Positions 4,130 to 23,994 of a stretch of 64,000 nucleotides of DNA are shown here, one piece after another. Numbering within the stretch: position 1 is the stretch's first letter; each line of letters starts with the position of its first letter. The notes below the pieces were generated by a model. That model did not search any database, had not been told where the DNA came from, and was given only the letters and a program-made list of their open reading frames with translations. The position numbers and the translations under genes are program-made. The stretch comes from Anaerolineae bacterium (GTDB lineage Bacteria > Chloroflexota > Anaerolineae > Anaerolineales > Villigracilaceae), in NCBI GenBank assembly GCA_003130845.1, contig QEXW01000136.1, forward strand, positions 1 through 64,000, in the 5' to 3' direction.

Positions 4130-4430
4130 AGCGTATAAGCAACGGATGGTGAAACGGATAAACAGATGGGGCAACGGATGATGGCAACGGATGGTGAAGC
4201 GGATAAACGGATGGGGCAACGGATGAGGAAACGGATAAGCGGATGAGGGCAGCGGATGGTGAAGCGGATAAACGGATGGGGCAACGGATGAGGAAACGGA
4301 TAAGCGGATGAGGGCAGCGGATGGAGAAGCGGATAAGCGGATGGGGCAACAGATGAGGAAACGGATAAGCGGATGAGGGCAGCGGATGGTGAAGCGGATA
4401 AGCGGATGGAGAAGCGGATGCGAGTGTAGA
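4130..4430. repeat. CGGAT-word tandem array with 65-bp higher-order period
   Basis: The whole usp-mobA gap (4123-4459) is made of words such as GCGGATGGTGAAG, CGGATAAACGG, GGGGCAACGG and GATGAGGAAACGG. They are arranged in a 65-bp unit whose starts fall at about 4187, 4252, 4317 and 4382. There are no unique spacers. All frames stay largely open because the period is not a multiple of three, so ORFs here are artefacts. Read on the minus strand, the words (CCATCCG, TCATCCG, TTGCCCCA) match the repeat inserted in hisH at 22052-22425. Confidence 0.9.
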
Positions 4431-14480: not shown

Positions 14481-15299
14481 TTAACGTTTCCAGTGAATGG
14501 CTTTACGTTCTAGCCAGACAATCACCCCGTAAAAGGCCATACCTGACAGAGACAAAATGAAGATGGCAGCAAACATGGGCGGCAGGTTGAGATTACTGTA
14601 GGCTAGCCACATGACACGTCCTAACCCGCTCGAGGCTCCGGTCCATTCGGCAATCACTGCGCCGACCAATGAGAGGGGGGCAGTGACCCGCAAGGCAGCA
14701 AATAAGTAGGGTAGGGCGAGCCAAACTCTCAAGTGAACGAGAATCTGCCACCGATTGGCACGTTGAACGTGCAACAAATCAAGCATGTCACGTTCAGCGC
14801 TTTGCAAACCGACCAAAACGTTTACCAGCGTGGGAAAAAAGGTGAGCAAAGCGGTGATGATGATTTTGGGCAGGACTCCAAACCCAAGCCAAATGGTGAG
14901 TAATGGGGCAATGGCTGCCAGTGGGGTGGATTTGACCAAGATGGCAAGTGTCATGACACCCCGTTCTAAGTTAGGATGCAGACTGACCAAGCCGGCAACT
15001 AAAATGCCGACTAGGCTACCTAGCAATAACCCACCGAGCGCTTCACCGAGTGTGATTAGCAATGCAGAAACGAAATAGACAGGGTTCTGCCAAAAGGTGT
15101 GTAGAATGCGCGATGGGGCCGGTAAAAGGTAGGCTGGTATATCATAGTATCTGACTATGCCTTCCCAGCCAGCAAATAACCCCACGAACATCAGCAAGGC
15201 CCAGAACAAGGAACGGTTGTGAGATGCAAGGCGCAGGGGATTTAGGCCAGGCCTTGCGAGGCGCTCAGCCAATCGGGCGTGATACGAAAGGCCTGCCAT
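14481..15299 (-). CDS. ABC transporter permease, SsuC/ThiX/RibX type
   Basis: 272 residues with about six helices and the EAA-type loop ([32 protein letters not shown]). It should form a homodimeric channel for the binding protein 52 bp downstream. The ATG at 15299 lies inside the upstream regulator gene, a 58-nt overlap. It is supported by a strong GGAGG 4 nt before it (GGAGGTCGAATG), which decides the start. No ATPase gene is linked. Confidence 0.88.
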
Positions 15300-16336
15300 T
15301 CGACCTCCGGCAACGGGCTATGTTGTCCCAAGTAGCGCCGCTGTAAACGGCGTAATAGATGGGGAACTTCTGCTTTTGAGAGTGACTGGGCAATCCCGCG
15401 TACCAACACGCGTCTTAAGGGTGGCCAGGGTTCATCCACTGTGAGCGAAACGCTCGGATTAGAGCGCACATATTCAGCCCATAATGAGCCTTGCCAGGCG
15501 GTGATGTAAAAATATTGGCCATCCCATTCTTGCCAGACCGGGACGACATGTGGCGTACCATCGGGACGCAAACAAGCCAAGCGGGCGATCCAAGGCCCGC
15601 CTAGGAAAGCGGTGATTTGGGCGTCATCCAGCGCGCGGCGCTGAATGGGGGATTCGAGCGTTGGGTTTTTCCAGGGTGTATAACGGAGTGCACCTAGCCG
15701 ATAGGAAAGCCGTGCGGCCAACTCGCGCAGGATCGGAAGGTAGTCGTTTAGCCGTTCACTGCTCCAACGAAAGGAAGGCACACTCAGGACCAGAGCGGCC
15801 GAGGGGGTTTGGCCATCCCGACAAATGGGAAGTGCCAGTTCTGTGCTTTCTATCTCATTGCTCATGGCATAACCGGTTTGCAACACCCTGGGCGGTGGGG
15901 ACGGCATAAGCACTAACGCCGGGGCACTTTCGGTGGTGAAACGTCTGGCTGCTGTGAAAACACTGCGCACTTGCGCCTTTCCTTCAACTTGTGCCACCAG
16001 TAAAGCACCTGTCGAAAACGGCAGGGCAAGCGCCAGCGTTTCTGGCAATTCAAGAGTCGAGGCTTCCTGATAAAAGGCAGCTTGTAACTTGGGGAAAAGC
16101 ACATTGCCGTTGCGCCAGGCCAACAGGCGCGGACCGGCGTGATAGCGCCCGCGCTTTTCCGCTTGTCCAACATACCCTAGTGTTTTGAGCGTGTTGAGCA
16201 AGACAAACAACGAACTGCGCGAAATTTCAATGCGCGTCAGCATCTCAGAAATATCCGCGCCTTCGGGTTGCTCCAGCAAAATTTCGAGCAACAACAACGC
16301 GCGTTCAACCGAGGAGAGTTCAGATTCTGTTGACAC
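15242..16336 (-). CDS. IclR-type HTH fused to a PNPOx-like flavin-binding domain (regulator)
   Basis: 364 residues from a GTG at 16336, chosen because AAAGGA lies 6 nt before it and because the preceding in-frame sequence has no family features. Residues 1-75 form an IclR-like winged helix ([48 protein letters not shown]). A weakly recognisable middle domain follows. Residues about 235-364 look like a pyridoxamine-phosphate-oxidase-like split barrel ([22 protein letters not shown]). It probably regulates the overlapping permease and binding-protein genes, sensing a flavin, F420, haem or B6-type ligand. Divergent from the his leader. Confidence 0.72.
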
Positions 16337-16433: not shown

Positions 16434-16462
16434 TTGACGAATTTTCCCTGCGCGAGTACAAT
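16434..16462 (+). promoter_or_regulatory. Sigma70-type promoter of the his operon
   Basis: TTGACG at 16434-16439 and TACAAT at 16457-16462, with exactly 17 nt between. Transcription is predicted at about 16469-16471, only 2-4 nt before the leader-peptide ATG at 16473, so the transcript is essentially leaderless. Confidence 0.8.
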
Positions 16463-16472
16463 CATCCCCAAG

Positions 16473-16541
16473 ATGAAACTAACCTTAGCCCTGCACCATC
16501 ATCACCTGCTTTTCCCCCTGCCTGACCAGAGCGCAGGTTAG
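16473..16541 (+). CDS. hisL: Histidine operon leader peptide
   Basis: A 22-codon reading frame with four consecutive histidine codons at positions 8-11 (CAC CAT CAT CAC), ending in TAG at 16539-16541. No Shine-Dalgarno sequence is present and the predicted transcription start is adjacent to the ATG. The frame overlaps two arms of mutually exclusive RNA hairpins. Stalling at the His codons when His-tRNA is scarce should favour read-through into hisG. Function is inferred from the architecture, which matches the his attenuators of enteric bacteria. Confidence 0.85.
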   Translation: MKLTLALHHHHLLFPLPDQSAG

Positions 16542-16597
16542 TTTCGCTTACTAACCCACCTAACCAGCCCTCGGTCAGTGACCGGGGGTTTTTGTTT
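16477..16597 (+). promoter_or_regulatory. his attenuator: competing antiterminator and terminator hairpins
   Basis: Arm A AACTAACCT (16477-16485) is perfectly complementary to arm B AGGTTAGTT (16535-16543). Arm B, extended to GAGCGCAGGTTAG (16529-16541), also pairs with CTAACCAGCCCTC (16560-16572) with two mismatches. That would consume the 5' side of the terminator. A third partner ACTAACC lies at 16550-16556. A ribosome stalled on the His codons would cover A and free B for the antiterminator; one reaching the TAG would cover B and allow termination. Confidence 0.82.
16568..16597 (+). terminator. his attenuator terminator
   Basis: CCCTCGGTC / GACCGGGGG stem (about 9 bp with one T-G pair, loop AGT), followed by TTTTTGTTT, 16 nt before the hisG ATG. 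Confidence 0.85.
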
Positions 16598-16612: not shown

Positions 16613-17608
16613 ATGTCCCGTCCCATCCGCCTCTCTCTCCCCTCCAAAGGCCGCTTGGCCGATGAATCTGTCGCCTTCCTTAAGGAGTGCGGCTTCAGCA
16701 TTTACAAGCCCAACCCGCGCCAGTACGAAGCGTCTATCCCCGCCTTGCCGGGGGTCAGCGTCCTGTTCCAGCGCCCCACCGACATCGTGATTTCGGTGCG
16801 CAACGGCTCGGTGGATTTCGGCATCACCGGGTTGGATGTGCTGACCGAACACGGCGGCCCCAACGGGGCGATTCTGCCGATTCACACCGCGCTTGGCTTT
16901 GGGGCGTGTACCCTGAACGTCATCGTCCCCGAAGCCTGGAACGACGTGAACGTGATGGATGACCTGAAACGGAAGCAGGCCGAAGCCGGCCGTCCGCTGC
17001 GGGTGGCGACCAAGTTCCCCAACGCCGCCGCACCCTTCTTTGCACGGCACGGACTGTCGGAAGTCGTCTTTATCGAAGCCGAAGGCACGCTGGAGATTGC
17101 CCCCACCATCGGGTACGCCGACCTGATTACCGACCTGGTCTCCAGCGGCCAAACCCTGCGCGATAACCGCCTGAAAACCCTGGCCGATGGGCAAATTCTG
17201 GCCTCGCAAGCCTGCCTGATTGCCAACCGCGCCGTTCTGCAAGCAAACCCTGCCGCTCTGGCGGTCGCACGTCACCTGCTGGAGTTCATCGAAGCCCATC
17301 AGCGCGCCCAGAACAACGTCTCCATTTTCGCCAACATGCGCGGCGAAAGCGAAGCGGCGATTGCCGCGCGCGTCTTTTCCCAAAAGACAATTGGCGGGTT
17401 GAATGGCCCCACCATCAGCCGTATCATCCACCAGGACGGCGACCCCAACTGGTATGCCCTGCACATCGTGGTTCACCGCGATGAATTGTTCGCCGCCATC
17501 AACGAACTGCGCGCCATCGGCGGCAGCGGGGTCGTCGTTGCGCCCGTCACCTATATTTTTGAAGAAGAGCCGCCGCGCTACAAGGCCATGCTCGAAGCAT
17601 TGCGATAA
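16613..17608 (+). CDS. hisG: ATP phosphoribosyltransferase
   Basis: 331 residues from the ATG at 16613, preceded by CGAGG; a TTG at 16592 would start inside the terminator U-tract and is rejected. N terminus RPIRLSLPSKGRLADESVAFL, the FQRPTDIVISVRNGSVDFGITGLDVL region, the PRPP-binding stretch EGTLEIAPTIGYADLITDLVSSG, and a C-terminal extension consistent with the long, histidine-feedback form (HisG_C). It catalyses the first step of histidine synthesis (ATP + PRPP to phosphoribosyl-ATP). Codon third positions are much richer in C than in the flanking genes. Confidence 0.95.
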   Translation: MSRPIRLSLPSKGRLADESVAFLKECGFSIYKPNPRQYEASIPALPGVSVLFQRPTDIVISVRNGSVDFGITGLDVLTEHGGPNGAILPIHTALGFGACTLNVIVPEAWNDVNVMDDLKRKQAEAGRPLRVATKFPNAAAPFFARHGLSEVVFIEAEGTLEIAPTIGYADLITDLVSSGQTLRDNRLKTLADGQILASQACLIANRAVLQANPAALAVARHLLEFIEAHQRAQNNVSIFANMRGESEAAIAARVFSQKTIGGLNGPTISRIIHQDGDPNWYALHIVVHRDELFAAINELRAIGGSGVVVAPVTYIFEEEPPRYKAMLEALR

Positions 17609-19054: not shown

Positions 19055-19197
19055 GTCAAAGGTCGTCAAGCACCTTTCGACGTTTGACCTTCACCAAACC
19101 GCAAAATCGCGTAACCGGATAACCGGATAACCGGAAAACCGAACAACCGGAAAACCGAACAACCGGAAACCTGAACAACTGCAAAACCGTACCCCCT
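19055..19197 (+). repeat. hisD-hisC spacer built from AACCGGA words
   Basis: Contains GTCAAAGGTCGTCAAG...CGTTTGACCTTCACC (a short inverted word) and then a run of AACCGGATAACCGG, AAAACCGAACAACCGG units up to the hisC ATG. There is no Shine-Dalgarno sequence before hisC. The 18-mer GGATAACCGGATAACCGG at 19117-19134 is identical to 23541-23558 at the start of hisI. Confidence 0.85.
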
Positions 19198-21727: not shown

Positions 21728-22690
21728 ATGATTACGTTGGTAGATTACAAAGCTGGAAACCTGACCTCCGTCCGACGGGCGCTCACGCACCTTGGCATCC
21801 CCAGCCAAATCACTGCTGACCCAGATGTCGTTCGCCGCGCCGAAAAAATCATCTTCCCTGGAGTGGGCGCCGCTGGCGCGGCCATGAGCGTCCTGCGCGA
21901 GCGCGGGCTGGATGCGGCCCTGAAAGAGTCTTTTGCCAAAGGCACGCCCATCCTGGGCATCTGCATCGGCTGCCAAATCATCTTAGAACATTCCGAAGAA
22001 GATGACACCGAATGCTTGGGTCTGCTCCCCGGTAGAACCATCCGCTTTTTCTCATCCGCTTCATCCGTTTCCCCATCCGTTGCCCCATCCGCTTCATCCG
22101 TTTCCAAATCCGTTGCCCCATCCGTTGCCTCATCCGTTGTCCCATCCGCTTCATCCGTTTCTCCATCCGTTGCCTCATCCGCTTCATCCGTTTCCAAATC
22201 CGCTGCCCCATCCGCTTCATCCGTTTCCAAATCCGTTGCCCCATCCGTTGCCTCATCCGTTGCCCCATCCGCTTCATCCGTTTCTCCATCCGTTGCCTCA
22301 TCCGCTTCATCCGTTTCCAAATCCGCTGCCCCATCCGCTTCATCCGTTTCCAAATCCGCTGCCCCATCCGCTTCATCCGTTTCCAAATCCGTTGCCCCAT
22401 CCGCTTATCCGCTTCCAAATCCGTTGAAAATTCCCCACATGGGCTGGAACGCCGTGACTGTCATCCGTCCGCACCCCCTGCTGGCGCATTTGCGTCCTGG
22501 TGACGAATTCTACTTCGTCCACTCCTACTACCCCCAGCCCGCCGACCTGGGCCAAATCTACGCCGTCAGCGACTACGGCGGCGAATTCCCGGTCGCCATT
22601 GGCAAAGACAACCTATTTGCCGTGCAGTTTCACACCGAAAAGAGCGGCGCGGTGGGGCTGCGGGTTCTTGAAAACTTCAGTAAATGGTAA
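21728..22690 (+). CDS. hisH: Imidazole glycerol phosphate synthase glutaminase subunit with large repeat insertion
   Basis: 320 residues against about 200 normally. The glutaminase core is intact: nucleophile Cys79 in GICIGCQI, oxyanion region PGVGAAG, and the His302/Glu304 pair in VQFHTEKSG. Residues about 109-228 are a low-complexity insertion of 11-residue units such as SASSVSKSAAP, placed exactly between LGLLPGRTIRFF and LKIPHMGWN. The reading frame is kept because the DNA unit is 33 nt. The insertion lies in a surface loop preceding the HMGWN strand, so HisH may still work with HisF. The enzyme supplies ammonia from glutamine to HisF. Confidence 0.93.
   Translation: MITLVDYKAGNLTSVRRALTHLGIPSQITADPDVVRRAEKIIFPGVGAAGAAMSVLRERGLDAALKESFAKGTPILGICIGCQIILEHSEEDDTECLGLLPGRTIRFFSSASSVSPSVAPSASSVSKSVAPSVASSVVPSASSVSPSVASSASSVSKSAAPSASSVSKSVAPSVASSVAPSASSVSPSVASSASSVSKSAAPSASSVSKSAAPSASSVSKSVAPSAYPLPNPLKIPHMGWNAVTVIRPHPLLAHLRPGDEFYFVHSYYPQPADLGQIYAVSDYGGEFPVAIGKDNLFAVQFHTEKSGAVGLRVLENFSKW
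22052..22425 (+). repeat. In-frame 33-nt-period tandem repeat inside hisH
   Basis: Words TCCGCTTCA, TCCGTTTCCAAA, TCCGTTGCCCCA and TCCGTTGCCTCA recur about 40 times in blocks of 33 nt, encoding Ser/Ala/Val/Pro-rich sequence. The same words, reverse-complemented, make up the non-coding array at 4130-4430. Confidence 0.95.
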
Positions 22691-23862: not shown

Positions 23863-23994
23863 TCAAAAATCGAAGATTGAAAATTACCATCCAGCCTTTG
23901 ACTTTTGACCTTCAACGACCGGCAATCTCAATCACTAGCGAACTAGGCAACTGGACAACCGGAGAACTGGACAACCGGAGAACTGGACAACCAA
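23863..23994 (+). repeat. hisI-hisE spacer with 16-bp tandem repeat
   Basis: Two nearly three copies of AACTGGACAACCGGAG (from 23949) abut the hisE start; upstream are GTCAAAAATCGAAGATTGAA and TTTGACTTTTGACCTT words. No Shine-Dalgarno sequence precedes hisE. Confidence 0.88.

Follow-up and report, generated by a model that had tools for sequence, protein, structure and literature searches.

In Escherichia coli and Salmonella, the his operon is preceded by hisL, where a leader peptide with His codons, mutually exclusive RNA helices and an intrinsic terminator lie ahead of hisG. The enterobacterial peptide carries seven His codons. For the Firmicutes, the available text of PMC9413887 describes T-box control of some his genes, HisR and, in the Bacillus cereus group, Peptostreptococcaceae and Erysipelotrichales, predicted His-leader attenuators with 3–5 His codons and a terminator plus antiterminator before the his operons; a leaderless start is not described for them in that text. 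The original prediction for the DNA studied here had named T-boxes as the device of Firmicutes his genes, which is correct for some of these genes only. In Sinorhizobium meliloti, the rnTrpL/trpL leader RNA has the AUG of its leader peptide right at the 5′ end and acts in ribosome-mediated attenuation (PMC7298713, PMC10117765). Mycobacteria have leaderless poly-Cys short ORFs ahead of biosynthetic genes, which the available parts of the sources describe as regulating translation of the downstream genes (PMC4633059; Canestrari 2020 as cited in PMC9031893).

The window analysed here (the whole stretch of DNA, 64 000 nucleotides) contains the operon hisGDCBAHFIE, and the RNA ahead of hisG is very probably a ribosome-mediated his-operon transcription attenuator with a near-leaderless leader peptide (predicted 5′UTR of 0–3 nt). 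Among named sequences, those closest to this hisG come from Anaerolineales MAGs (Chloroflexota). With the enterobacterial his attenuator the Anaerolineales leader shares the His-codon peptide, the exclusive helices and the terminator before hisG; the window leader differs in having four His codons, no Shine–Dalgarno (SD) sequence, a predicted 5′UTR of 0–3 nt and one helix arm (arm 1) placed at the leader's start codon. The S. meliloti trpL peptide is likewise leaderless, but it concerns tryptophan, another operon and the Alphaproteobacteria; the mycobacterial ORFs, too, are leaderless and contain stretches of the amino acid under control, but that amino acid is cysteine and no his genes are involved. 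A literature search, which covered few subscription papers so that an earlier prediction is possible, found no description of attenuation in Chloroflexi/Chloroflexota, in line with the expectation that this type is little described there. The mechanism is classical, and its leaderless version appears to be undescribed in Chloroflexota, to which ribosome-mediated his attenuation would thus be extended with order-wide conservation in the Anaerolineales.

Table 1. Features of the his leader and adjoining genes (positions in the window).
Feature	Position	Strand	Remarks
Divergent gene upstream of leader	15242–16333	-	
Sigma70-type promoter TTGACG-N17-TACAAT	16434–16462	+	TTGACG 16434–16439, TACAAT 16457–16462, spacer 17 nt; top promoter score in 400 nt before hisG; kept across family and order
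Predicted transcription start A16470, 5′UTR AAG (3 nt)	16470–16472	+	From base conservation after the -10 box
Near-leaderless leader peptide ORF MKLTLALHHHHLLFPLPDQSAG	16473–16541	+	22 codons, stop UAG
Arm 1 (holds UG of start codon)	16474–16485	+	Partner arm 2; coevolution, see text
Four His codons in a row (regulatory codons)	16494–16505	+	Read from the ORF
Antiterminator 5′ arm CTGACCAGAGCGC	16522–16534	+	Partner 16567–16578; coevolution, see text
Arm 2 AGGTTAGTTTCG (UAG stop inside)	16535–16546	+	Partner arm 1 or arm 3; triple covariation, columns 11/71/83
Arm 3 ACTAACC	16550–16556	+	Partner 16536–16542, nested in antiterminator
Intrinsic terminator	16567–16597	+	16567–16576 with 16580–16589, then T-run; coevolution, see text
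hisG	16613–17608	+	First gene of hisGDCBAHFIE (operon to 24270)

Promoter and predicted transcription start

The promoter was taken as the highest score within 400 nt upstream of hisG, blind to any ORF. In the window this choice falls on the element of the original prediction, and the coordinates of the promoter, with its -10 box 10 nt before the leader ATG (16473), and of the 22-codon frame with four His codons were confirmed. Of 130 His-ORF loci in the blind scan, 60 share this 10-nt spacing and 105 fall between 6 and 11 nt; in ten further His-ORF loci, an in-frame TTG or GTG follows the -10 box at 0–1 nt, and almost all of these also have an ATG farther along in the same frame. When the spacing is 10 nt (40 non-redundant leaders), position 8 downstream of the -10 box holds A in 32 leaders and G in seven, mostly with C in the three preceding positions. 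A spacing of 7 nt puts the start codon's first base at this position. The pattern points to transcription beginning at the conserved purine, which would leave a 5′UTR of 0 or 3 nt. No SD-like tetramer (GGAG, GAGG or AGGA) precedes the leader ATG in any of the 88 non-redundant leaders; such tetramers are present at 82 of 128 hisG starts. A -10 box that implies a 5′UTR of 0–5 nt, together with the lack of an SD, is the signature of a leaderless mRNA, and the leader is predicted from its sequence to be one. Leaderless genes in general have the -10 signal about 12 bp before the start codon, and about 4.7% of genes are leaderless in 4 of 12 Chloroflexi genomes (Zheng et al., 2011, PMC3160421). Our literature search found no start-site mapping papers on Anaerolineae.

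A genuine attenuator could also carry its leader ORF on a longer 5′UTR made from an upstream promoter, in which case it would not be leaderless. Alternative in-frame starts in a few relatives would suit such an arrangement, but we regard it as improbable given that the blind best promoter stands 6–11 nt ahead of the ORF at most loci, that a purine is kept eight bases 3′ of the -10 box and that the leaders are free of SD-like tetramers. The single apparent exception, L016, does have a TTG in frame, 9 nt 3′ of its -10 box. The gene just upstream is divergent, so a distant upstream promoter for the his operon is unlikely and the promoter should be sought in the short stretch between the two genes. 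On the near-leaderless reading, the predicted leaderless start is the rule and not the exception for this attenuator, and the conserved promoter-to-AUG distance makes the coupling of transcription start, 70S loading and attenuation open to direct test.

Leader peptide and its distribution

Regions upstream of hisG were sampled at four ranks (family, order, class and phylum), and an ORF was called His-rich when it had at least three His in 8 codons, the chance level being set by dinucleotide shuffles. A His-rich short ORF lies 6–11 nt after the top promoter in 105 of 128 regions from the family and order (Anaerolineales), against 0.3 in shuffles, and at class level a His ORF is present in 16 of 40 loci (shuffles, 0.1); these counts are lower bounds, the script having overlooked real cases that were recognized by eye (e.g. 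L013, L028, L051, L055 and L086). None of the 11 loci from other classes of Chloroflexota has a His ORF. All 88 non-redundant leaders have at least three His within 8 codons, and the His leader is present under every order-level family label that yielded a hisG match. Two same-genus genomes (L022 and L023) lack a His leader immediately before hisG, which is preceded there by other sequence; this suggests that the attenuator has been lost or has moved elsewhere. Three order-level relatives (L218, L221 and L222) have very short leaders such as MSNTTHHHHHHSF (then a stop codon), with six His codons; a terminator is present in these, without a clear antiterminator within the ORF.

The His ORF might be incidental to a terminator that is constitutive or under the control of a His-binding RNA or protein, and terminators are indeed common in operon leaders. 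This we consider very improbable: when the same ORF count was made for other amino acids in the 128 family and order loci, Val came next with 11 and none exceeded it, the antiterminator arm follows right after the His run in most leaders, and at the gathering threshold Rfam shows neither a riboswitch nor a T-box in the window. The available text of PMC9413887, in which some Firmicutes his genes are T-box-regulated, would allow the same type of control here. For this operon, however, the chance of T-box control is negligible, as it is contradicted by the Rfam scan, which found no T-box in the window, and the RNA from promoter to hisG is only about 140 nt, mostly leader ORF and terminator.

No Rfam match was accepted in the window, whether the threshold applied was the gathering one or a permissive one. 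Against the His_leader model (RF00514) the window scores 16.0 bits, compared with a gathering threshold of 49 bits, and it therefore falls outside that family in its present definition; the Anaerolineales his leader represents a family absent from Rfam. In the sampled relatives, no Trp leaders were seen upstream of trpE and no branched-chain leaders upstream of ilvB, which apparently has ilvD before it there, so that the stretch covered would lie inside the operon; a T-box was not found upstream of ilvB either.

Terminator and competing helices

The leader RNA folds with a predicted energy of -40 kcal/mol (z = -3.7 relative to shuffles). In the idle form, arm 1 is paired with arm 2 and the terminator is also formed; in the alternative form, the antiterminator (16522–16534 with 16567–16578) encloses the hairpin of 16536–16542 with 16550–16556. 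In most leaders, the 5′ arm of the antiterminator comes shortly after the His codons. An ORF rich in the operon's own amino acid, an intrinsic terminator between this ORF and the first gene, and a mutually exclusive antiterminator under selection define ribosome-mediated attenuators of the his class, and each of these is found here. The terminator had been correctly placed just before hisG. The original prediction had further proposed three alternative pairings of one GGTTAG arm, with 16474–16485 (12 bp), ACTAACC at 16550–16556 and CCTAACC at 16559–16565. All three can form in the window, but the third is not kept in relatives and was dropped as a conserved partner. The GGTTAG pairings are not enough alone to disrupt the terminator; the separate antiterminator had been overlooked.

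Coevolution of the arms was measured by exchanging them between the 88 non-redundant leaders, with reversed arms as controls. This took the place of duplex shuffling sequence by sequence, which for the antiterminator has little power at most loci, since chance pairing between GC-rich arms is already good. Swapping weakens the pairing of the antiterminator (z = -6.1), of the ORF-start helix formed by arms 1 and 2 (z = -14.9) and of the terminator (T5:T3, z = -26.2), values that are not exact probabilities, as related leaders are not independent and the permutation significance is inflated. The reversed-arm controls gave +1.6 for the antiterminator and -3.5 for the ORF-start helix, the latter somewhat under its own swapped mean.

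In an alignment of 16 genomes, both alternative forms have 94–96% standard pairs, compared with 25–54% after a shift by 1–3 columns. Column 71 of this alignment (arm 2) is A in most genomes and C in four, and the same four have T to G at both partners of column 71, column 11 (arm 1) and column 83 (arm 3). The four genomes occupy three places on the hisG tree, so the A-to-C switch in arm 2 with T to G in both partners has probably happened three times. On that tree, the count was four changes per column pair, one of the four being unpaired in either pair. Of the three partners originally proposed for covariation, arms 1 and 3 thus covary with arm 2. The comparison of leader sequences shows that the competing pairings coevolved, and the reading as a his attenuator with a near-leaderless four-His peptide in Chloroflexota is supported by the conserved His run, the conserved -10-to-ATG spacing, the lack of an SD-like motif, the coevolving helices and the terminator.

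Ribosome position and proposed mechanism

The ribosome was modelled with its 3′ edge 17 nt beyond the first base of the P-site codon. With this assumed geometry, a ribosome on the first His codon leaves the antiterminator free and one on the stop codon covers it. In the simulation, before the 3′ arm of the terminator is made, upstream RNA binds most of the 5′ arm in 72 of 88 leaders when the ribosome has stalled on His and in 13 of 88 when it is at the stop codon; the 5′ arm is held more at the stall than at the stop in 74 leaders, and the opposite is true of three. Part of this difference is expected because the stop position exposes less RNA, and the His-stall value was therefore set against shuffled upstream RNA (0.70 versus 0.44, p = 8e-11). 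Even when the RNA is full-length, the window leader has its lowest energy in the antiterminator form if the ribosome has stalled at the first His codon; if the ribosome stands on the last one, the lowest-energy form is the terminator. Antitermination from this last position therefore needs the antiterminator to form first, a kinetic precedence that is assumed. In one subgroup of leaders (L030, L031, L075–L077 and L080), the stop codon is reached only about 30 nt beyond the antiterminator arm (about 31 in L031), and a ribosome at the stop would therefore not mask the arm; release timing may matter in this subgroup instead of masking.

From the leader's anatomy, its conservation and the coevolution of its competing helices, all read in the sequences themselves, we infer a start site, leaderless loading, stalling and a regulatory response as follows. 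The RNA would begin about 3 nt ahead of the AUG of the four-His peptide, and a ribosome would load at its 5′ end without an SD sequence. With charged His-tRNA, the ribosome would reach the UAG in arm 2 and mask 16522–16534, and the terminator would form. With uncharged His-tRNA, it would stall at the His codons and hide most of arm 1; arm 2 would then pair with arm 3, and 16522–16534 would take the 5′ arm of the terminator before the 3′ arm exists, letting RNA polymerase enter hisG. If there were no translation, arm 1 would pair with arm 2 and termination would be the default. In 58 of 88 leaders, the best ORF-start duplex includes two or all three of the AUG bases. We put forward tentatively, as a rather doubtful extension, that having the start codon in this helix makes first 70S loading on a bare 5′ end and the default-terminating helix mutually exclusive, and that a single first-ribosome decision could thus sense both His-tRNA and the capacity for leaderless (70S) initiation throughout the Anaerolineales.

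The his operon and neighbouring sequence

The divergent gene upstream of the leader seems to encode a fusion protein, in which an N-terminus of the IclR regulator type, with a weak KdgR/BhcR match, is joined to a domain resembling F420-dependent PPOX-class oxidoreductases. Within the operon, hisH (21728–22690) has an in-frame low-complexity insert of about 120 amino acids at 22051–22426, built of tandem CATCCG-type units. It falls between HisH profile positions of about 108 and about 119, and both halves still match HisH. Tandem arrays of related GGAT/AACCGGA units are found at 4139–4420, 19112–19189 and 23940–23992 of the window, and also before ilvB of the same genome (locus L245).
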